The notes under the pieces: generated by a model | What the model saw: only the letters and a program-made list of their open reading frames with translations | Databases searched by the model: none | Told to the model about the DNA's origin: nothing | Made by a program: the position numbers and the translations under genes | NCBI GenBank assembly: GCA_020056155.1 | Contig: JAGVII010000725.1 | Coordinates: forward strand, 1-8,484 | DNA: 8,484 nt | DNA from: Afipia sp. | GTDB lineage: Bacteria; Pseudomonadota; Alphaproteobacteria; Rhizobiales; Xanthobacteraceae | Reading direction: 5' to 3' | Part shown: piece after piece, positions 1 through 8,484 of the stretch | Layout of the letters: each line of letters starts with the position of its first letter | Position numbering within the stretch: the stretch's first letter is position 1

Positions 1-191
1 CCGGTGACAACCGGCGGCAGCACCAGCGGCAGATAGACCAGCGCATCGAGCGCGGCCTTTCCCCAGAACTCGCGCCGCGCCAGCAGCCACGCCACGGCGA
101 TGCCGAGCGGCGTGGCGACCAGCGTGGCGACGGCGGCGACCCGCAGTGAAAGCAGGATCGCCGTCCAGTCCTCGGGAGAGAGATCGAACAT
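1..191 (-). CDS. modB: Molybdate ABC transporter permease ModB, N-terminal part (cut by window edge)
   Basis: This is the inner-membrane permease of the molybdate importer, which with ModA (binding protein) and ModC (ATPase) moves molybdate into the cytoplasm. Only the first 63 codons are inside the window. They read MFDLSPEDWTAILLSLRVAA onward, with a hydrophobic first membrane segment at about residues 11-37, a charged loop (LARREFWGKAA) and the start of a second segment ending in LPLVLPPVVTG, a sequence typical of ModB. The ATG at 191-189 lies only 6 bp after the modA stop, and an AAGG just upstream could serve as ribosome binding site, so the two genes are almost certainly one transcript and translationally coupled. 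The rest of modB, and probably modC, should lie to the left. Confidence 0.93.
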   Translation of the reverse strand, partial: MFDLSPEDWTAILLSLRVAAVATLVATPLGIAVAWLLARREFWGKAALDALVYLPLVLPPVVT

Positions 192-197
192 GCGGCC

Positions 198-1022
198 TTA
201 GGAGACAGGCTTGATCAGGAATGTGAAGCCGTACTTCTCGAAAATCGCCTTGGCCGCTCCCGAACGCAGAAACGCGAGATAGCCGTTGGCGCCGGCTTTC
301 GCGTTCACTGTCGCCGCGACGGGATAGATGATCGCCGGATGCGAATCCGCCGGGAAGGCGCCGACGATCTTCACGCCGGGTTCGACCCTGGCGTCGGTCT
401 CGTAGACGATGCCGAGTGCCGCTTCGCCGCGCGACACCAGTGCCAGCGCTGCGCGCACACTTTCAGCCATGGCGAACTTCTGCTCCGCCGCCTGCCACGC
501 GCCGAGCTTTTCCAGCGCCGCCTTGGCGTATTTGCCGACCGGCACGGCCTTGACGTCGCCGGTCGCAATCCGGCCGTCGCCCGCGAGCTTGGCGAGATCG
601 AAGCCTGCTCCGATCATGACGTTCATGACCCTGGAATCCTTCGGCGCGATCAGCACGATCTTGTTGCCGAGCAGATTGACCCGCGACGGATCGCTGATGG
701 TCTTTTTTCCGGCGGAATAATCCATCCAGTCGGTGTCGGCGGAGATGAAGATGTCGGCGGGCGCGCCCTGTTCAAGCTGCTTGGCCAGCGCCGAACTGGC
801 GGCATAGCTTGAGATCACCTTGGTGCCCGTCCTGGCGGTGTAGGCGGCATTGGCTTCGTCGAGCGCATTCTTCATGGACGCGGCTGCAAAGACGGTAAGA
901 GTCCTGTCCTGCACGGCGGCTGGCGGTGCGCCGGCGGGTTTTGCGTTCTGCGCCTGAGCCATCGAGAAAAATGGCGCACACACAAGCGCGGTGACGACGA
1001 GAAAACGGGGCATGAAGGTCAT
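198..1022 (-). CDS. modA: Molybdate-binding periplasmic protein ModA
   Basis: This is the periplasmic substrate-binding protein that delivers molybdate (and usually tungstate) to the ModBC importer. The protein has a signal peptide (MPRFLVVTALVCAPFFSMAQA, probable cleavage near AQA) followed by a mature domain opening with TLTVFAAASMKNALDE, then SYAASSALAKQLEQGAPADI and FISAD. These are the classic ModA stretches: the Ser in AAS and the Ser in the AASSAL segment correspond to residues that contact the oxyanion, and the later GIVYETDA segment carries the conserved Tyr. I chose the ATG at 1022 (274 aa) because a GGAG lies 6 nt upstream of it; in-frame ATGs at 1034 and 1013 have no comparable site. 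The length is normal for ModA. It is the first gene of a modAB(C) operon. A short hairpin (CGCGC-AAAA-GCGCG, 1044-1057) sits in the leader. I could not find a convincing ModE box. Confidence 0.95.
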   Translation of the reverse strand: MTFMPRFLVVTALVCAPFFSMAQAQNAKPAGAPPAAVQDRTLTVFAAASMKNALDEANAAYTARTGTKVISSYAASSALAKQLEQGAPADIFISADTDWMDYSAGKKTISDPSRVNLLGNKIVLIAPKDSRVMNVMIGAGFDLAKLAGDGRIATGDVKAVPVGKYAKAALEKLGAWQAAEQKFAMAESVRAALALVSRGEAALGIVYETDARVEPGVKIVGAFPADSHPAIIYPVAATVNAKAGANGYLAFLRSGAAKAIFEKYGFTFLIKPVS

Positions 1023-1222
1023 TGGGCGCTCCATAGCGGGACACGCGCAAAAGCGCGCAACCCGGCTTCGGTCATTTCATCTGACGACAAGCGGAAGCGC
1101 CGTTCCGGCAACCCCGACAGCGCGCAGCATGGCGGAGCATCGTTGGCCGCGACCATATCAGGCGTAATGTCTGCGTAAAGGCCTGGAATCGCGCTTTATG
1201 CGTTGACCGCGTTCTGCTGGCG

Positions 1223-2161
1223 TTATGGCGCCTGCAGAACCTGCCGGCATTCGGCGGGCAGATTTGCCATCGTGAGCGGCGGTTTTGGCTTGGGCGGCTT
1301 CACCGGCGGCTTCGGATGCAGCACGCGGTCGCTGAACCAGTAGGCGAGGTCGCCCGCGCTGCAGCCTTCGCCGTTGTTCGGCGGCGTCTGCGCCTCGCAG
1401 TTGGTGCTGCTCGCGGGACATTTCATGCGGATATGGAAGTGATAGTCGTGTCCGTACATCGGCCGCACCTTCGACAGCCAGCTGCGATCACCTTTCGCTT
1501 CCCGGCATAGCGCCTTCTTGATCGCGGCGTTGACGAAGATGCGCTCCACCTGCGGCTCCTGCGCGGCGGCGCGGATCACCGGAAGATGTGTCGGCGTCCA
1601 GGTGCCGGGATCGATGTCGAGACGATCTTTCCGCACCATCATCACCGCCGACGTTTCCTCGCGCTCCTCGCGCGAAAGCTGCCGGTTCGGCATCGGCGTC
1701 AGCCAGACGTCGGCATCGAGGCCGACCTGATGGCTGGCATGGCCGGTCAGCATCGGTCCGCCGCGCGGCTGCGACAGGTCACCGACCAGTAGTCCCGGCC
1801 AGCCCGCGTTTTTCTGCGCCTTGGCGGCGACTCGTTCCAGCAAGGCAATCAGATCCGGATGTCCCCAGTTGCGGTTGCGCGACAGCCGCATGACCTGCCA
1901 CGCCGGTCCGTTGATCGGCAGCGCGGCCGCGCCCGCAATGCAGCCCCTGGCGTAAAAGCCGATCGGCTGCGGCGCGAGTTTCGCGGGCAGCAGCTTGCGG
2001 CCGAACAACTCCTTGGCGGCGACATTGGGAGCGTTGGGATTGGCGAGCGGTGGAAGCGGCCTGGGATTGACGCTCCCCTTGTCCTGTGCGGATGCCGGAC
2101 CTGCCATCGACACGACGGCTGACATCAGGACGAGCGCGGGAATCAGACGGTGTCGCTTCAT
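1223..2161 (-). CDS. mepA: Penicillin-insensitive murein endopeptidase MepA (M74, LAS family)
   Basis: This is a periplasmic zinc peptidase that cuts D-Ala-meso-DAP (and LD) cross-links between peptidoglycan strands. Numbering from the ATG at 2161 (312 aa), residues 1-26 form a signal peptide ending GPASAQ. The LAS metal site is intact: GHASHQVGLDADVW at 140-153 supplies H144 and D151, and YGHDYHFHIRM at 236-246 supplies H241 and H243. Six cysteines (74, 219, 248, 255, 267, 305) have spacings that match the three disulfides I recall for the E. coli enzyme. The C-terminus has a proline-lysine linker (HPKPPVKPPKPKPPL). An upstream in-frame ATG at 2365 would add 68 residues and bury the signal peptide, so I reject it. 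The ribosome site upstream of 2161 is weak (AAGAGA). It stands alone, 188 bp behind modA and divergent from the GGDEF-EAL gene. Confidence 0.95.
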   Translation of the reverse strand: MKRHRLIPALVLMSAVVSMAGPASAQDKGSVNPRPLPPLANPNAPNVAAKELFGRKLLPAKLAPQPIGFYARGCIAGAAALPINGPAWQVMRLSRNRNWGHPDLIALLERVAAKAQKNAGWPGLLVGDLSQPRGGPMLTGHASHQVGLDADVWLTPMPNRQLSREEREETSAVMMVRKDRLDIDPGTWTPTHLPVIRAAAQEPQVERIFVNAAIKKALCREAKGDRSWLSKVRPMYGHDYHFHIRMKCPASSTNCEAQTPPNNGEGCSAGDLAYWFSDRVLHPKPPVKPPKPKPPLTMANLPAECRQVLQAP

Positions 2162-2503
2162 GGCGTCTCTTATAGCGGAAGGCCGCCCCGGCGACGAGAC
2201 GGCGCGGTTTTTTAAGACGATGTTAGCCATGCCGGTGAATGACGCAAATTGGTGCGGAACGCTGTGTCCGGGTGCATCGTTGAGTGCCCGGCATGCGATA
2301 ACCGCGGTAGCCCAGTAACAACAGGCCGCACGCGGGGCCGTGATCCATCGGTGTGGACCCGGCAAAAGCCTTGCAATTGAGCATTTCTGTTTGCCCGTTA
2401 TGCATCAATCCCGGCCGAAGGCTGCGGCCGGTGCCGAGAGATACCATTTTTTCAGACACTTATATCAAGACTGCTGCCCGCAGAATGCGAGGGGCGTAAG
2501 GCG
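2162..2503. promoter_or_regulatory. Divergent intergenic region between mepA and the GGDEF-EAL gene
   Basis: This 342-bp stretch holds no credible gene and must contain the promoters of both flanking genes. A weak plus-strand candidate is TTGAGC (2377-2382) and TATGCA (2399-2404), separated by 16 bp. A perfect 7-bp stem, CCGGCCG (2411-2417) and CGGCCGG (2425-2431), is followed 15 nt later by a run of six T (2447-2452); the gap is too long for an ordinary intrinsic terminator. The ribosome site GAGGGG at 2489-2494 lies 9 nt before the ATG at 2504 and fixes that start. The promoter assignment is tentative. Confidence 0.4.
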
Positions 2504-4714
2504 ATGCCGATCAATCGGCCAAAATCAAAAACCAGGTCCGGAAAGTCAGCACATACGCGGGGAAGGTTGTCGGTTCGCCGGCCAAAAGCCGTGCCGAAGC
2601 TGTTGAACAAGGGCCGCCGGATTATCGAAATCGGCGAGATCGAGCGCACCCGCGCGGAAGCCGAGGCGGCGATCGCGGATGCCGCGCGGTCCAATGCGCG
2701 CCTGCGCGAAGCGATCGATATCCTGCCGCAGGGCATCGTGTTTCTCGACGCCGACGGCCGTTACATTCTCTGGAACAAGAAATACGCCGAGATCTACAGC
2801 AAGAGCGCCGATCTCTTTGAAGAAGGAGCGATGCTGCGCGACACGCTGAAGGTCGGCGTCGCGCGCGGCGATTATCCCGAAGCCGTCGGCCGCGAGGACG
2901 AGTGGATCAACGAGCGGCTCGAGAAGCTTTATCATCCCGGCCATCGCCACGAACAGACGCTGTCCGACGGCCGCTGCATCCTGATCGAGGAACGTCTCAC
3001 CGGCGACGGCGGCGTGATCGGACTGCGCGTCGACATTACCGAGCTGAAACAGCGCGAAGCCTCGTTCCGTCTGCTGTTCGACGGCAATCCGGTGCCGATG
3101 ATCGTCTGCTCTCAGGACAGTGAGCGTATCATCAGCGTCAATGACGCGGCGGTCGCGCATTACGGCTACTCGCGGGAAGACTTCGAGAAACTGAAGGTCT
3201 CGGACATTCAGGCCTTCGATCAGGCCGCGCCCTGGACCGGCGACCAGACCACCGAGGAACGCGCCGCGCGGACGTGGAAGCATGTCAAGGCCGACGGCGC
3301 GTTGATCGACGTTGCGATCTACTCACGCCTGCTGGTGTTCGAGGGCCAGCCGGCGACGCTGCTGGCGCTGATGGACATCACCGAGCGCAAGCGCGCCGAG
3401 GCGCGGCTCGCCTTCATGGCGCAGCACGACGGCCTGACCGGACTGCCGAACCGCATCCTGCTGCGCCAGCGGCTGGACGAACTCCTGGCGCACACGCGCC
3501 GCAGCGGCGACAAGGTCGCGGTGCTGTTTCTCGATCTCGACAATTTCAAGGGCATCAACGACACGCTGGGCCATGCCATCGGCGACAAGCTGCTGAAGGG
3601 CGTGACCAAGCGTCTGCGCTCGTCATTGCGCGAGGAGGACGCCATCGCGCGCCTCGGCTCCGACGAATTCGCCATCGTTCAGGCCGGCGTGAGCCGTCCT
3701 GAGGAAGTGGCGTTTCTGGCGCGGCGCCTGATCGACGCCATCAGCGAGCCCTATCTGTTCGATGGCCACACCATCATCAGCGGCGCCTGCATCGGCATTG
3801 CCATTGCGCCCGGCGACGGCGACGACGCCGAGAAACTTCTGAAGAATGCCGACATGGCGCTGTCGCGCGCCAAGAGCGAAGGCCACGGCACGTTCGGCTT
3901 TTTCGAGTCGGAAATGGACGCCCGCGCCCAGGCGCGCCGCCGCATCGAGATCGATCTGCGCGCCGCCATCGAGAACAACGTGCTTCAGCCGCATTACCAG
4001 CCGCTGGTCGATCTCAAGAGCGGACAGATTACCGGGTTCGAGGCGCTGGTGCGCTGGCCGGACCGCGAACGCGGCATGATTCCGCCCTCCGAATTCATTC
4101 CGGTTGCGGAAGAAACCGGCCTGATCAACGCGGTCGGCGGACTGATGCTGCGGCGCGCCTGCATGGATGCGGCGCAATGGCCTGACGACGTGCGTGTCGC
4201 GGTCAACCTGTCGCCGCTGCAGTTCCGCGTCGGCAACCTGTTGTCGGTGGTGATGGACGCGCTGAAGACATCCGGCCTGTCGCCGAAACGGCTCGAACTG
4301 GAAATCACCGAAACCCTGCTGCTCGACAAGAGCGATCAGGTGCTGGCGACGCTGCATGCGCTGCGCGCGCTCGGCGTGCGGATTTCGATGGACGACTTCG
4401 GCACCGGATACTCGTCGCTGAGCTATCTGCGCAGCTTCCCGTTCGACAAGATCAAGATCGACCGCTCCTTCGTGCAGGATCTCGATTCCAACCACGACGG
4501 ACAGGCGATCATTCGCTCGATCATCTCGCTCGGCATGGGTCTCGGCGTCACCATCACCGCGGAAGGCGTCGAAACCGAAGCCGAACTGAGCTGCCTTCGT
4601 GCCGAAGGCTGCCACGAAGGACAGGGATTCCTGTTCAGCCGCGCGCGGCCGAATGCGGAGATCACGGCGCTGCTGCAGGCCCAGCGCAACGCGCGCGAAT
4701 CGCGCGTCGCCTGA
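2504..4714 (+). CDS. PAS-PAS-GGDEF-EAL protein, predicted c-di-GMP phosphodiesterase with substituted GGDEF
   Basis: This 736-aa cytoplasmic signalling protein controls the second messenger c-di-GMP. Domains in order are a basic, probably disordered N-terminus (1-35), a helix rich in Ala/Glu/Arg (45-70), a PAS-like domain (about 70-180, ending VDITELKQRE), a second PAS (about 185-297, ending MDITERKRAEA), GGDEF (about 300-465) and EAL (about 475-730). The GGDEF core reads LGSDEF (384-389), a Gly-to-Ser change in the signature, but the inhibitory I-site R376-EE-D379 is intact at the usual five-residue distance. The EAL domain has every hallmark: EAL at 513-515, N568, E600, DDFGTGYSS at 630-638, K651, AEGVET at 686-691 and Q707. 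I infer phosphodiesterase activity, with the GGDEF domain either regulatory or weakly active. There is no membrane segment, so the PAS pair should sense a cytoplasmic ligand or redox state. Start supported by GAGGGG 9 nt upstream. Confidence 0.93.
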   Translation: MPINRPKSKTRSGKSAHTRGRLSVRRPKAVPKLLNKGRRIIEIGEIERTRAEAEAAIADAARSNARLREAIDILPQGIVFLDADGRYILWNKKYAEIYSKSADLFEEGAMLRDTLKVGVARGDYPEAVGREDEWINERLEKLYHPGHRHEQTLSDGRCILIEERLTGDGGVIGLRVDITELKQREASFRLLFDGNPVPMIVCSQDSERIISVNDAAVAHYGYSREDFEKLKVSDIQAFDQAAPWTGDQTTEERAARTWKHVKADGALIDVAIYSRLLVFEGQPATLLALMDITERKRAEARLAFMAQHDGLTGLPNRILLRQRLDELLAHTRRSGDKVAVLFLDLDNFKGINDTLGHAIGDKLLKGVTKRLRSSLREEDAIARLGSDEFAIVQAGVSRPEEVAFLARRLIDAISEPYLFDGHTIISGACIGIAIAPGDGDDAEKLLKNADMALSRAKSEGHGTFGFFESEMDARAQARRRIEIDLRAAIENNVLQPHYQPLVDLKSGQITGFEALVRWPDRERGMIPPSEFIPVAEETGLINAVGGLMLRRACMDAAQWPDDVRVAVNLSPLQFRVGNLLSVVMDALKTSGLSPKRLELEITETLLLDKSDQVLATLHALRALGVRISMDDFGTGYSSLSYLRSFPFDKIKIDRSFVQDLDSNHDGQAIIRSIISLGMGLGVTITAEGVETEAELSCLRAEGCHEGQGFLFSRARPNAEITALLQAQRNARESRVA

Positions 4715-4718
4715 AGCG

Positions 4719-5099
4719 CTAACGGCGTTTCGCGGCCTTGCGGACGGTTTTGCGCGCGGATGTTTTCCTGGCCGATTTTGACCGCGCCGCCGCGTGACGC
4801 TTGCGGGTCGCGGCCGCTTTCTTGGCGGAGCGCGATCGTGCCGCCGCAGGCCGTGCGGCCGCAGCCCTTCCGCCGCGCGGACCGCCGATCCGGCCGCCTT
4901 TTTTAGCCGACACGTTGGTGTCCTTCACGCCGCGGCCCGAGCCGCTCCTGTTGCCGCCGCCGGTTTCCTTGTTGACCGTCGCCCAGGCGCGGCGCTCGGC
5001 CTCGTCCTTGCTGACGCCGCGCTCCTCGTAGCCTTCCTCGATATGTTGCGCCTTGCGCTTCTGCTTGCCGGTGTAACTCGATTTGTCGCCGCGCGGCAT
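4719..5099 (-). CDS. Small basic protein with histone-H1-like Ala/Lys/Arg tail
   Basis: This 126-aa protein has two parts. Residues 1-56 (MPRGDKSSYTGKQKRKAQHI, then an EEGYEERGVSKDEAERRAWA segment and a Gly/Ser-rich turn) match a small family common in rhizobia and often labelled 'plasmid stabilization protein', a label with little experimental support. Residues 68-126 form a tail of Ala, Lys, Arg, Ser and Gly (AAARPAAARSRSAKKAAATR and similar) with no acidic residue, like the C-terminal tails of histone H1 and of bacterial H1-like DNA-binding proteins. A nucleoid-binding role is an inference from composition. The ATG at 5099 is chosen because GGAGAG lies 5 nt upstream and because the family begins MPRGDKS; an in-frame ATG at 5165 has no such support. 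Its stop codon is 4 bp from the stop of the convergent GGDEF-EAL gene. Confidence 0.8.
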   Translation of the reverse strand: MPRGDKSSYTGKQKRKAQHIEEGYEERGVSKDEAERRAWATVNKETGGGNRSGSGRGVKDTNVSAKKGGRIGGPRGGRAAAARPAAARSRSAKKAAATRKRHAAARSKSARKTSARKTVRKAAKRR

Positions 5100-5190
5100 G
5101 ACATCTCTCCCTGACGGATGTGGACGATGCCAGAACGCAGCAGCCGCGCGTGCGTTCCATCGCATTCCGGCAATCGTGCCCTGTCAAAGC

Positions 5191-5216
5191 AAAACCCCGG
5201 CCGAAGCCGGGGTTTT
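5191..5216 (-). terminator. Intrinsic terminator downstream of the DUF1508 gene (possibly bidirectional)
   Basis: A perfect 11-bp inverted repeat, AAAACCCCGGC (5191-5201) and GCCGGGGTTTT (5206-5216), flanks CGAA. Read on the minus strand the loop is UUCG closed by C-G, an unusually stable tetraloop, followed by UUUU. It lies 37 bp past the DUF1508 stop at 5253. It would therefore separate that gene from the H1-like gene downstream, although it is symmetric enough to act in both directions. Confidence 0.85.
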
Positions 5217-5252
5217 CAGGGTCGCGCGCAGGCTCGGCGCCGCGCAGCGGTT

Positions 5253-5495
5253 TTACTTCTTTTTGGATTTCTTCTTCTTTGCCTTCTTCGGCTTCGGCGC
5301 GGCCTTCACGGCCTTCGAGACGTCATCGATCTCGGCCTTGCCGACATTCTTGATGACCGACTTGATCGAGCTCTTGGCGGACGCCTTGTTGGAATAGCCC
5401 TCCGAGGCGAACATCTTTTCGCCGTTCGGCGCGCGAAAGCGAAAACGGAATTCGCCGGATTTGTCTTTGTAGATTTCAAACTTGTAGGACGGCAT
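5253..5495 (-). CDS. DUF1508 (YegP-like) protein with Lys-rich C-terminal tail
   Basis: This 80-aa protein has one DUF1508 unit at residues 1-50: YKFEIYKDKSGEFRFRFRA, then the hallmark NGE, then SEGYSNKASAKSSIKSV. The family forms a small beta-alpha fold and its biochemical role is unknown; E. coli YegP has two such units, whereas this protein has one. From about residue 62 it runs into KAVKAAPKPKKAKKKKSKKK, a purely basic tail that suggests binding to nucleic acid or another polyanion (inference). The ATG at 5495 is preceded by GGAG with 7-nt spacing. The terminator at 5191-5216 ends its transcript. It shares strand and a basic tail with its neighbour at 4719-5099 but seems to be a separate transcription unit. 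Confidence 0.87.
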   Translation of the reverse strand: MPSYKFEIYKDKSGEFRFRFRAPNGEKMFASEGYSNKASAKSSIKSVIKNVGKAEIDDVSKAVKAAPKPKKAKKKKSKKK

Positions 5496-5649
5496 TCGTG
5501 ATCTCCGATGATTGATAATGACGCGCGCACGTTATGCGCGCAGCGCACCGGAGACAAGTGCAGGTTGTGCGTTACCCTCAGTGCATTGGCCCGGACGGCA
5601 CGCCAGGCAATCGCGATCGTCGCTGTCACAATCGGGATTCGCCATCGTT

Positions 5650-5742: not shown

Positions 5743-5830
5743 ATGTGAATGCCCTGTTCGGCTGCGTTCGCTTCGGACGCGCGTGAGCATCCGCTTCACC
5801 TGAGGGCGCGGAATGCCCGGTCCCGTTTGC

Positions 5831-6098
5831 ATTTCCTCTTGAGGAAGAAATGGAGCGCCGGGAGGCGCCAGGGGTTTGCGAGACCCCTCATGACGAACCC
5901 TGGCGAGAGGTTCGTCCGCGTGCCGCAACGAGAACGGAGTGCGAGTCCGTCTCGCGAGGCGCGCGCGTTCTGATGCGGGAAGGTTTGCGAGGCCTTCCGC
6001 CCGAACGCTGCGCCTCCCGGCGCTCCATCAGCCGCGCCCCGACGTGCTGGGGTGGCGGCTGCGAGTTGATCCCTCCGCGTCATGAGCGTGGAGGGATC
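5831..6098. other. Dense multi-hairpin structured element, possible noncoding RNA or palindromic mobile element
   Basis: A perfect 19-bp inverted repeat, ATGGAGCGCCGGGAGGCGC (5850-5868) with its complement at 6010-6028, encloses four hairpins. H1 is AGGGGT/ACCCCT (5870-5875, 5883-5888). H2 is GACGAACC/GGTTCGTC (5892-5899, 5909-5916). H3 is CGAG-ACGGA with TCCGT-CTCG (5929-5938 with one bulged A, 5946-5954). H4 is GGAAGG/CCTTCC (5978-5983, 5993-5998), itself inside GCGTTC/GAACGC (5965-5970, 6003-6008). The four loops are TTGCGAG, CTGGCGAGA, GTGCGAG and TTTGCGAGG, all containing GCGAG although the stems differ. Flanking hairpins are TTCCTC/GAGGAA (5833-5846), CAGCCGC/GCGGCTG (6029-6035, 6055-6061, with inner CCCC/GGGG) and GATCCCTCC/GGAGGGATC (6068-6076, 6090-6098). 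I see no coding gene in it. I believe similar blocks recur in related genomes, but cannot verify that here. Strand and function are unknown. Confidence 0.6.
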
Positions 6099-6202
6099 GA
6101 TAATAGGAATATAGTCCAATTGCCAAAAAGTCAACCTCGCCGATCCTTAGGTCATCGGAAATGCCATGAGTGCCGGGACAAGCGGACAACAATACCGATG
6201 TC

Positions 6203-6222
6203 GTCCCCGCGCAGGCGGGGAC
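6203..6222. repeat. REP-like hairpin GTCCCCGC-GCAG-GCGGGGAC
   Basis: A perfect 8-bp stem with a four-base loop, followed by CCATAACCCC. The wording resembles a dispersed palindrome that I recall from Bradyrhizobium-type genomes (GTCCCCGC, loop, GCGGGGACCCATAACC). It sits 105 bp before the nuclease gene. There is no T-run, so it is not a canonical terminator. A smaller palindrome, CTTTCGAAAG, lies at 6280-6289, 37 bp upstream of the nuclease ATG, and could be a regulator site, though it is too short to press. Confidence 0.6.
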
Positions 6223-6326
6223 CCATAACCCCTGAACTACCCGATCAAATCGGATCGATCGCTCCAGTCCGGATTTTCGCTTTCGAAAGTGCTAGCAATG
6301 GGCTTTGTGAGAATTTGAGAGGATAC

Positions 6327-7262
6327 ATGAATCAGTTTTGGATTATGGCTCCCTACGCGGCAAACCCTCCTGAACAATTTGAGAAGGTTTGGGAATATGA
6401 TTTGGCGAATGACGTCATTTCAATTGGTTGGCCGGGTTTCGGCAACGTGCTTGAGATGAGCGAAACTCAGCTAAATGAAGAAGTAACTCGGAAGTATTCT
6501 CACAAGCCGCCGCAAACGCGAAGCCTTATCGCAAACATGCTGTGGGCATTTTACCATCGCATACGACCAGGCGACACAATCATTGCAAGGCGCGGACGAA
6601 AGACTCTCGCTGCAGTTGGTAGAGTTGCTCAGAGCGCGGTTTGGTCGCCGGGAGCAAATCCTTTGACGGATCACGCTGGCTATCTGGGCGTTGAATGGCA
6701 AGTCTCCCCGCGAGACAAGGAATTTAGCAGCATCGTGTTTCCGATGCATTCCTTGATCGAGGCTTCAAGCGAGGACGTTGAAAAACTTTTGCGACCCGAT
6801 GAGCCGATGCTATCGAGTCCGGAGCCTGCCGTTGGAACAGCGGGCGACGTTGTCGAGGACACCGCGATCTTCGTGCTTGAGAAATATCTCGAGGATTTTA
6901 TCGTCAGCAATTTTAATGCAATATTCAAGAGCAAGCTGAATATCCATCAAGATGGTGAGGGGAATGACGGTCAGCAGTATACGACCGATATAGGCCCGAT
7001 TGATATTCTGGCTGTCGAACCTGAAACGAAAGCTTTCGTCGTTATCGAGCTTAAAAAGGGCCGCCCGTCAGATCAAGTTGTGGGGCAGATTCTTCGATAC
7101 ATGGGATGGGTGAAGGAAAAGCTTTGTACAGAAGGCCAAGCGGTGAAGGGGCTCGTAATCTGCCAAGGCCGCGACAAGAAGCTAGACTACGCACTGAGCA
7201 TAGTGAGCAACATCGATATCCGGTATTACTCGGTATCCTTTAGTCTTCGAGAGAATCCGTGA
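6327..7262 (+). CDS. Predicted PUA/EVE-like reader fused to a NucS/DUF91-type PD-(D/E)XK nuclease
   Basis: A 311-aa protein with two domains. Residues 1-145 (MNQFWIMAPYAANPPEQF, then VISIGWPGFGN at 30-40, IRPGDTIIARRGRKTLAAVG at 79-98, and VEWQV at 122-126) have the pattern of PUA/EVE-like domains found at the N-terminus of Mrr-like and McrB-like restriction proteins, which read modified bases. Residues 180-300 form a nuclease core: LEDFI (189-193), D226 in GPIDILAV, E241-L-K243 in VVIELKKG and Q254-ILR-Y258, which is the D...ExK...QxxxY set of the NucS/RecB-like group. Domain assignments are by eye. The ATG at 6327 has GAGAGGA just upstream; the open frame continues back to 5850 but only through palindromic repeats. 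Base content is lower than its neighbours (24/60 G+C at 6361-6420 against 39/60 at 4201-4260), suggesting transfer. No methyltransferase is beside it, so a modification-dependent or self-sparing nuclease is the best guess; a repair role is the alternative. Confidence 0.8.
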   Translation: MNQFWIMAPYAANPPEQFEKVWEYDLANDVISIGWPGFGNVLEMSETQLNEEVTRKYSHKPPQTRSLIANMLWAFYHRIRPGDTIIARRGRKTLAAVGRVAQSAVWSPGANPLTDHAGYLGVEWQVSPRDKEFSSIVFPMHSLIEASSEDVEKLLRPDEPMLSSPEPAVGTAGDVVEDTAIFVLEKYLEDFIVSNFNAIFKSKLNIHQDGEGNDGQQYTTDIGPIDILAVEPETKAFVVIELKKGRPSDQVVGQILRYMGWVKEKLCTEGQAVKGLVICQGRDKKLDYALSIVSNIDIRYYSVSFSLRENP

Positions 7263-7281
7263 AGCAGAAAGCGTTTTGATC

Positions 7282-7353
7282 GTCCCTCAACTATCCACCT
7301 TCAGCGCGGCAACAAACGCTTCCTGCCGGATATCGACCTTGCCGAACCGCCGC
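7282..7353 (-). repeat. Detached copy of the lepA 3' end (left arm of a direct repeat)
   Basis: These 72 bp align without gaps, at an offset of 684, to 7966-8037, which spans the last codons, stop and first 5 bp past lepA. Sixty-six positions are identical, including the first 31 in a row. On the minus strand it still reads RFGKVDIRQEAFVAALKVDS and a stop. It differs from the true LepA tail by Q to R, P to R and I to V, plus three silent changes. It has no upstream coding sequence and is a remnant. It lies 19 bp after the nuclease stop and 6 bp before the mazF stop. Confidence 0.9.
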
Positions 7354-7359
7354 GCATCG

Positions 7360-7686
7360 CTATCGCGCCAGTCCGAGGATCACCAGCAGCGCGCGGTCGA
7401 GCTGTTCAACCGTTGTGTCATCAAGCTTACCGAGTACGGTACGGATACGATCGCGCTTCAGCGCGAGCAGTTTGTCGGTCATGATTTGCGAGCGGATGCG
7501 CAGGCCGTTTTTGCCATCCGGCTCGACAATGGGCCGCAGCGGCAAATCATTTTGCACATCGGATGAAAGCGGGCAGACGACGGCTGTCGATAGCCCCGTC
7601 AGTTGATCTGACTGAACGATAACGCCGGGCCGGGGCCGTCCGAGTTCGCTCGGAACAACCACCAGCACGACATCGCCGCGCCTCAC
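7360..7686 (-). CDS. mazF: MazF/PemK-family toxin (predicted mRNA interferase)
   Basis: A 108-aa cytoplasmic toxin expected to cut mRNA at short specific sequences. The MazF signature is clear: it opens MRRGDVVLVVVPSELGRPRPG and continues VIVQSDQLTGLSTAVVCPLS, the RPGVIVQ strand typical of the family. It then has the GLRIRSQIMTDKLLALKRDR segment, which carries the usual Ser/Thr and Asp positions, and ends VLGKLDDTTVEQLDRALLVI plus a short hydrophobic tail. The length is normal. The start is GTG (7686-7684), overlapping the antitoxin TGA by 4 bp (GTGA), so translation is coupled to the antitoxin and probably weaker, as expected for a toxin encoded second. It is convergent with the nuclease gene. 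Its cleavage sequence cannot be told from sequence alone. Confidence 0.92.
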   Translation of the reverse strand: MRRGDVVLVVVPSELGRPRPGVIVQSDQLTGLSTAVVCPLSSDVQNDLPLRPIVEPDGKNGLRIRSQIMTDKLLALKRDRIRTVLGKLDDTTVEQLDRALLVILGLAR

Positions 7687-7919
7687 TTTAGATCGCCCCA
7701 GTCGTAGGCTGCTTCAATCCAGTCGTCGATGGCCTTGTTATTGGGATGCGCCGCCATCAGCTTCGCCTGCCTGCGCAAGTCAGCAACAACTTTGGGATCG
7801 CGTAAATCCGGAACCCAGTGCTGGACCGGCCGCAAGCCCTGGGCGCGCAGGCGTTTGCGCCGGGCAGCCATTCGCTGCTGCGGGGTTCGCGGCGCCGTCT
7901 TTTTCCGCGTGGTGACCAT
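7683..7919 (-). CDS. mazE: MazE-like antitoxin (DUF3018 family)
   Basis: This 78-aa protein is the expected partner and inhibitor of the MazF-type toxin encoded directly after it. It starts with a very basic region (MVTTRKKTAPRTPQQRMAAR, then RKRLRAQGLRPV), continues with QHWVPDLRDPKVVADLRRQA and ends with a short acidic, Trp-containing segment (DDWIEAAYDWGDLK). This matches the MazE-like DUF3018 family, in which the N-terminal part binds DNA and the C-terminal part blocks the toxin. The ATG at 7919 lies 6 bp from a perfect 18-bp palindrome. No good Shine-Dalgarno sequence is present, so translation may be leaderless or weakly initiated. The stop TGA (7685-7683) overlaps the toxin GTG. Autorepression by MazE or MazEF is inferred from the palindrome. 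Confidence 0.9.
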   Translation of the reverse strand: MVTTRKKTAPRTPQQRMAARRKRLRAQGLRPVQHWVPDLRDPKVVADLRRQAKLMAAHPNNKAIDDWIEAAYDWGDLK

Positions 7920-7925
7920 GGATGA

Positions 7926-7943
7926 AACGTAACATGTTACGTT
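7926..7943 (-). promoter_or_regulatory. Probable mazEF operator, perfect 18-bp palindrome
   Basis: AACGTAACATGTTACGTT is fully self-complementary with no spacer and ends 6 bp upstream of the mazE ATG. A possible minus-strand promoter overlaps it: TTGAAT as -35 and TACGTT, inside the right half, as -10, spaced 17 bp. A repressor bound here would cover the -10 region, fitting the usual autoregulation of toxin-antitoxin operons. The promoter elements are weak matches; the palindrome itself is certain. Confidence 0.7.
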
Positions 7944-7965
7944 CGCGAATTCAACGGCGGATACT

Positions 7966-8037
7966 GTCCCTCAACTATCCACCTTCAGCGCGGCAATGAA
8001 AGCTTCCTGCGGGATGTCGACCTTGCCGAACTGCCGC
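7966..8037 (-). repeat. lepA 3' end in place (right arm of the direct repeat)
   Basis: This is the intact partner of 7282-7353: the last 21-22 codons of lepA, its stop and 5 bp beyond. The two arms have the same orientation and enclose 612 bp holding only mazE and mazF. The exact 31-bp run (7966-7996) covers the stop codon and the final codons of lepA. In an insertion at a gene end, this intact arm could be the one brought in and the detached arm the original. Confidence 0.9.
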
Positions 8038-8484
8038 ATCTTCTTCTTGCCTTCCTTCTGCTTCTCCAGAAGTTTGCGCTTGCGCGAGATGTCGCCGCCA
8101 TAGCACTTCGCGGTGACGTCCTTGCGCAGCGCGCGGACGGTTTCGCGCGCGATCACCTTGCCGCCGATCGCCGCCTGGATCGGAATCACGAACATGTGCG
8201 GCGGGATCAGTTCCTTCATCTTCTCGACCATGGCGCGGCCGCGGCCTTCGGCGCGCTGGCGATGCACCAGCATCGACAATGCGTCCACCGGCTCGCTGTT
8301 GACGAGAATCTGCATCTTCACCAGATCGGCCGGCTTGTAGTCGGTCAGGTGATAGTCGAACGAGGCGTAGCCCTTCGAGACCGATTTCAGCCGGTCGTAG
8401 AAATCGAACACCACCTCGTTGAGCGGCAGTTCGTATTTCACCATGGCGCGGGCGCCGACGTAGGTCAGTTCCTTCTGGTTGCCG
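7971..8484 (-). CDS. lepA: Elongation factor 4 (LepA), C-terminal part (cut by window edge)
   Basis: A ribosome-associated translational GTPase thought to act in back-translocation or in ribosome assembly. Only the last 170 codons are present; the GTPase domain lies to the right. The reading frame is open through the right edge with [20 protein letters not shown], so the in-frame ATG at 8444 is internal and not the start. The LepA-specific C-terminal domain is complete: [60 protein letters not shown] and the terminal [19 protein letters not shown]. The gene itself appears undamaged, although its 3' end is duplicated 684 bp away and a toxin-antitoxin operon begins 51 bp after its stop on the same strand, so some read-through into mazEF is possible. 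Confidence 0.97.

Follow-up and report, generated by a model that had tools for sequence, protein, structure and literature searches.

The window, the whole 8,484 bp stretch of DNA analysed here, is one entire contig of an assembly with 909 contigs, and at its right end it carries the 3' part of lepA (elongation factor 4; 7971..8484, minus strand), which is truncated by the contig end, matches LepA_C (5.2e-51) and TIGR01393 (1.2e-78), and has its stop codon at 7971-7973. Behind lepA, on the same strand, lie a gene for a MazE-like antitoxin (mazE, 7683..7919; PF11455, Pfam 6e-19) and a gene for a PemK/MazF-like toxin (mazF, 7360..7686; PF02452 PemK_toxin, 1.8e-20, 73.6 bits against a cut-off of 23.1). 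The antitoxin gene is upstream and the GTG start of mazF overlaps its end by 4 nt, such that the two form one operon. A palindrome before mazE (7926..7943) is a predicted MazE/MazEF operator, whose core GTAACATGTTAC (7929-7940) is present exactly in 30 of 35 mazEF loci and with at most one mismatch in 31 of the 35; the best downstream control sites have 4-5 mismatches. MazF is predicted to be an RNA-cutting toxin held by MazE, with the palindrome predicted to act as the operator of both genes. On the far side of the pair, on the plus strand, is a PDDEXK-type nuclease gene (6327..7262) of the candidate defence family PDC-S02 (PADLOC 1.5e-52; NucS_C 1.3e-6; YhcG_C 3.6e-7).

The mazEF pair is bracketed by two copies of the lepA 3' end in the same orientation, as an earlier sequence-only reading had proposed. 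The attached end with 5 bp past its stop (7966..8037, minus strand) and a detached copy (7282-7353) are identical at 66 of 72 positions (92%) without gaps and with a spacing of 684, and repeat searching recovers them as the top-ranked repeat of the window. The proposed extent (67 bp of lepA including the stop, plus 5 bp) agrees with the stop position, the last 31 bases are identical in a row as described, and both coordinates and Pfam matches place only mazE and mazF between the copies. If a 2-nt insertion is allowed, the likeness of this 72-nt exact-register copy extends to ~7358, beside the mazF stop, and the detached end, a proposed homology arm (7282..7358, minus strand), thus starts next to mazF. 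A chance repeat was considered and rejected (blastn E 3e-25 between the copies, in a small database). A full second lepA decaying in place, the pattern that the earlier reading had named as speaking for gene duplication, was likewise rejected, just the last 72-77 bases being present. No second copy of the locus is found in the window's own genome, and the gene and Pfam content of 7354-7965 bears out the earlier statement that these 612 bp contain no integrase.

The six base differences of the detached copy comprise three synonymous changes, all to states also present in relatives, and three that alter amino acids (Q>R, P>R, I>V). Among 118 distinct lepA tails, drawn from 191 loci with repeats of one genome counted, the three altered positions are constant in 118, 118 and 117. 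The copy thus has the appearance of a lepA end no longer under selection, in keeping with the relic that had been suggested from the three changes. The companion suggestion, a replacement end from another strain, fares less clearly: the tails most like the detached copy belong to L012/L120 (G019) and L039/L200 (62 of 66 identical, against 60 of 66 for the window's own lepA), and the copy may come from another lineage, 66 bases being too few to decide.

Genus loci without the insertion

The leftmost part of the window (1..5583) is a backbone common to genus mates, with GGDEF-EAL and DUF1508 genes (Pfam) and two further genes that we take to be of molybdate-binding type and extensin-like. In 21 of 22 genus loci, backbone matching within 1-5583 lies downstream of lepA without mazEF, the detached tail or the nuclease gene; in the 22nd the contig ends too early to show it. 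None of the 22 has a match to 6291-7965 on the lepA strand, and this stretch (6291..7965) is treated here as the insertion as a whole. The interval between lepA and backbone varies among the 21 loci: its position, flanked by conserved genes, is fixed, and its content differs. Matches to mazF and to mazE occur in 2 of 29 genus genomes each, namely G000 and G012, those in G012 being distant and on a different contig from lepA.

Between backbone and insertion is a repeat element (5787..6290) that is also found downstream of lepA in G007 (82%), where 385 bp of other sequence separate the lepA stop from the shared element. It contains a perfect 19-bp inverted repeat (5850-5868 and 6010-6028) and occurs in several genus mates at varying distances downstream of lepA.

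Because 21 of 22 genus loci keep the backbone and lack mazEF, the tail and the nuclease gene, comparison of these sequences supports insertion of DNA at the lepA 3' end, the central claim of the earlier reading, with which the unselected state of the detached end also agrees. Its expectation of a relative in which lepA is joined directly to sequence at about 7281 is matched only loosely, by a distant Bradyrhizobium MAG (L064) that has a relative of the nuclease gene after lepA. In L064 this relative (1334-2267) has lepA on one side and mazEF on the other and likewise faces lepA, so that the nuclease gene and mazEF both occur at the lepA site in differing order. The nuclease gene is rare (4 of 391 family genomes at 1e-30 or better), and by this comparison it is a second cargo at the same lepA site.

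Tail copies and cargo across the family

A 63-residue LepA tail was compared with 391 family genomes, 373 of which matched; genomes with multiple matches were searched again and their DNA inspected, a protein-level procedure that misses short or heavily decayed tails. Downstream same-strand tail copies were confirmed in 22 of the 391, the window included (G000, G060, G076, G080, G095, G105, G126, G133, G135, G164, G178, G204, G231, G251, G256, G291, G293, G312, G328, G342, G360 and G386), with DNA identities of 84-98% for most. Left out of this count are G288, whose lepA is at the edge of a contig, G107, in which lepA itself is broken, and G141, G138, G011 and G017, in which the second piece is on a different contig. 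In G107 the assembled lepA lacks ~28 codons near its end (L150 1087-1471). Contigs of G011, G521 and G631 terminate inside the lepA tail, as would be produced by unresolved tail repeats breaking assemblies.

The genes between lepA and its tail copies are diverse, and the earlier suggestion that other cargo be sought there was fruitful. Pfam identifies DUF4258 and/or DUF2283 in L134, L135, L138, L140 and L143 (L136 and L145 are assigned by likeness to L079), mazEF in L148, dienelactone hydrolase in L137, a GNAT protein in L142, a CHAT protein in L146, a cyclase with TPR in L144 and L196, a solute-binding protein in L147, DUF1508 in L141, a transposase in L194 and ABC transporter genes in L198; the cargo of L139 has no named domain. 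Outside the 22, Bradyrhizobium sp. LMTR 3 (L099) has two extra tails, which enclose open frames, and mazEF follows the second of them. The segment 1714-3444 of L099 is a three-gene set between two lepA tails, without a confident Pfam or PADLOC match. No open frame of 60 codons separates lepA and tail in L195 and L197; the two genomes with tails and nothing of that length between are G386 and G328, in which the copy is ~250 bp behind lepA. Two copies without mazEF between them had been named as a pattern favouring duplication, and it does occur, in these last two genomes rather than at this locus; their empty tails could be lost cargo or plain duplication.

DUF4258 begins 30-84 nt behind the lepA end in 12 lepA loci with the DUF4258/DUF2283 pair or part of it, these loci having mostly been fetched around lepA. 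DUF4258 followed by DUF2283 directly behind lepA is seen in L079 (1768-2222), L134 (790-1268), L140 (805-1065) and L143 (734-1123). One DUF4258 protein weakly matches the BrnT toxin (3.4e-5, below cut-off). The pair looks like a second toxin-antitoxin family at the lepA site. The tail behind DUF2283 starts at nt -165 to -181 in L049, L079, L134 and L136 and close by in L145, in genera g10, g34 and g38, the exceptions being L204 (-202) and L143 (-85); the DNA behind these tails appears unrelated when judged by eye.

Across loci, the tail start varies from about 52 to 297 nt ahead of the lepA end, with differences between cargo types, and the tails end at the stop codon or a few nt past it, where related genomes diverge. 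As close or closer to another sampled lepA are 15 of 24 tail copies, and the remaining 9 are nearest their own. No integrase or recombinase family was seen in the 48 open frames between lepA and tails, as judged from the 25 of 44 families listed; 44 of these frames were also inspected individually, and one IS transposase is among the cargo.

The preference for lepA was assessed in several ways. By a single DNA criterion in 80 stretches, 10 of 62 lepA records are positive against 3 of 1043 for other genes, the 62 records representing 59 of the 80 loci (21 had no evaluated lepA). All ten positive records are in 20 stretches picked for tails or mazEF (L194-L213; 16 for tails and 4 for mazEF), where a tail was present in 10 of the 14 that were evaluated; the remaining 60 stretches were chosen after confirmed-tail genomes had been set aside, and their 0 of 48 is no population rate. 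For genes with conserved tails in 100 stretches, 16 of which were chosen for tails, the figures are 10 of 75 for lepA and 0 of 294 for the others. A Fisher comparison of 22/373 with 3/1043 gives 1e-10, but detection differed between the two; restricting the count to the ten that passed the same DNA test, out of all 373, gives 1.9e-4. An order survey of 297 genomes (283 matched, 272 of these outside the family) flagged five, and only G612 has a tail copy downstream on the same contig (1 of 272 outside the family, where the query is less like the lepA genes).

mazEF behind lepA

Among family genomes and named contigs, 32 of 35 distinct mazF genes (at least 50% identity) are downstream of lepA on the same strand, 279-4731 bp away; L260 and L101 are not behind lepA, L261 is at a contig edge, and the 50% cut-off left out G314 (51% in another search, and at a contig edge). 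Within genera, mazEF identities are 0.54-0.90 compared with 0.86-0.99 for LepA (31 loci), as expected if mazEF moves, and mazEF varies as much inside a genus as from one genus to another. The mazEF and LepA distances nevertheless correlate (r 0.57; 0 of 2000 permutations), so the pattern reflects in part shared descent.

A clear lepA tail directly behind mazF (score at least 19.5; shuffle maximum 14 in 640) is present in 5 of the 32 lepA-linked loci, these being the window, L213, L266, L073 and L065; most mazEF loci have therefore lost a tail or never had one. In a gapped alignment of 14 of the 32 loci, the tail begins at lepA nt -67 in the window and in L269, with L213 nearby; the L269 tail is weak, at 22.1 where shuffles reached up to 21.3, and the L065 score was reached by 6 of 300 shuffles. 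Several Bradyrhizobium records (L068, L076, L083 and L098) have behind lepA a mazF that looks interrupted or incomplete, which would fit a toxin gene decaying where it stands.

No plasmid or phage carrier of the cassette was found, for plasmids among the matches listed. MazF matches 304 plasmid records, all below 60% identity among the 10 of 304 listed. The cassette DNA with both tails matches 17 plasmid records, none with at least 80% coverage among the 10 listed, and the annotated matches are named lepA. A phage search returned one unannotated 5-kb record, whose match is confined to the lepA part, and viral contigs yielded six MazF relatives at 41-45% identity.

Proposed recombination at lepA, alternatives and known systems

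For the window we give an even chance to a reading in which a mazEF cassette sits between an intact lepA end and a decayed copy that serves, or once served, as a homology arm for recombination at lepA. The probable founding event of such cassettes is homology-facilitated illegitimate recombination, in which an incoming fragment would pair with the resident lepA end, its far end would join inside the resident tail, and the product would be lepA with a new end, cargo and a truncated old end. Since lepA would be damaged by loss of its complete end, that end would stay on the gene, and the detached copy would then decay. With lepA likeness on both sides, a lepA-cargo-tail segment could be placed behind another lepA by a double crossover, leaving the DNA downstream in the recipient in place, and it is likely, judging from the comparisons above, that lepA-addressed gene sets spread between genomes by such ordinary recombination. 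Movement of cargo and tail as a unit by crossovers in lepA seems the simplest account, because the DUF2283-tail junctions recur across genera with DNA behind them that looks unrelated. The founding event, the function of the arm and the direction of any transfer are deduced from sequence; no donor, transfer event or crossover was observed. A wider form of this proposal, in which integrase-free cassettes of cargo and lepA tail dock behind any lepA by host recombination and stack into toxin-antitoxin and defence arrays, is put forward tentatively, as possible though rather doubtful.

Each insertion might instead be a separate product of homology-facilitated illegitimate recombination, the detached tail being a displaced old end with no later role. 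We regard this as unlikely while recognising that several features suit it well: tail starts differ widely between cargo types, copies stop at or just past the stop codon where relatives diverge, tail and own lepA are often from different sampled lineages, and the same process is proposed for effector-immunity arrays in the available part of PMC5361080. It is less at ease with the similar junctions that recur across genera for DUF2283 (less surely for mazF), and 32 of 35 mazF of one clade behind lepA would be hard to obtain by independent captures.

A still less favoured alternative, which we consider improbable, ties mazEF to lepA since an early ancestor, with subsequent inheritance and loss, and treats the tails as leftovers of local duplications. 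Presence of this mazEF in only 1 of 29 genus genomes, and a diversity within genera that equals the diversity between them, count against ancient linkage, and duplication alone puts no unrelated genes between tails; the shared place and orientation in many genera, the correlated mazEF and LepA distances, the apparently broken or partial mazF genes of L068, L076, L083 and L098, the tails without cargo in G386 and G328, and the 9 of 24 copies nearest their own lepA, as plain duplication would give, all fit it. Very improbable is a site-specific integrating element that brought mazEF and a replacement lepA end, its integrase lost or acting from elsewhere: such elements do leave a single address with a fixed orientation, together with an intact gene end and a detached copy, but the cargo frames showed no integrase or recombinase family (25 of 44 families listed), the cargo is mostly small and mixed, and tail starts are not constant (about -52 to -297), though clustered within one cargo type. 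Varied starts and cargo in which no integrase was seen thus argue against site-specific integration, and of the earlier analogy with elements at tRNA genes, prfC, icd and trmE the insertion stands and the integrase does not.

If recombination through lepA-tail arms is correct, it would provide a mechanism, readable from sequence, by which toxin-antitoxin genes free of mobile elements land repeatedly at one spot across genera, and would make recombination-driven hotspots testable at a single gene. It would also give a rule for finding cargo, which is to search the interval that separates a core gene from a duplicate of its tail.

A lepA-tail cassette layout was not described in the accessible portions of the literature on lepA as an attachment site or hotspot, on toxin-antitoxin insertion sites, or on DUF4258/DUF2283, and the closest parallels are with three known situations. 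Recombination-driven core-gene hotspots, as presented in the available part of a 2017 study (PMC5635113), share turnover beside a core gene without a mobile element, requiring only host recombination and likeness to core genes; their arms are two different core genes, whereas here both proposed arms are the same lepA 3' end, one of them carried by the cassette. The Vibrio T6SS effector-immunity arrays, in those sections of PMC5361080 that were available, share anchored insertion by a proposed homology-facilitated illegitimate recombination, displacement of the old end downstream, and stacking, and displaced-end arrays of orphan 3' ends are cited there for Rhs/CDI; the Vibrio anchor is a polymorphic toxin gene, whereas the anchor in the present loci is a housekeeping gene, lepA, to which the cargo bears no relation. 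SGI1 at trmE, according to the accessible text of PMC8409611, likewise leaves the gene end intact with a detached copy at the far side, but differs from the lepA loci, in which no integrase was found, copy starts vary and the cargo is one or a few genes. By its sequence the toxin-antitoxin pair itself belongs with the MazEF type II systems, sharing their two domains (PF02452 and PF11455), antitoxin-first order, overlapping genes and a palindrome ahead of the operon, and what sets this clade apart from such systems in general is its near-fixed chromosomal address behind lepA.
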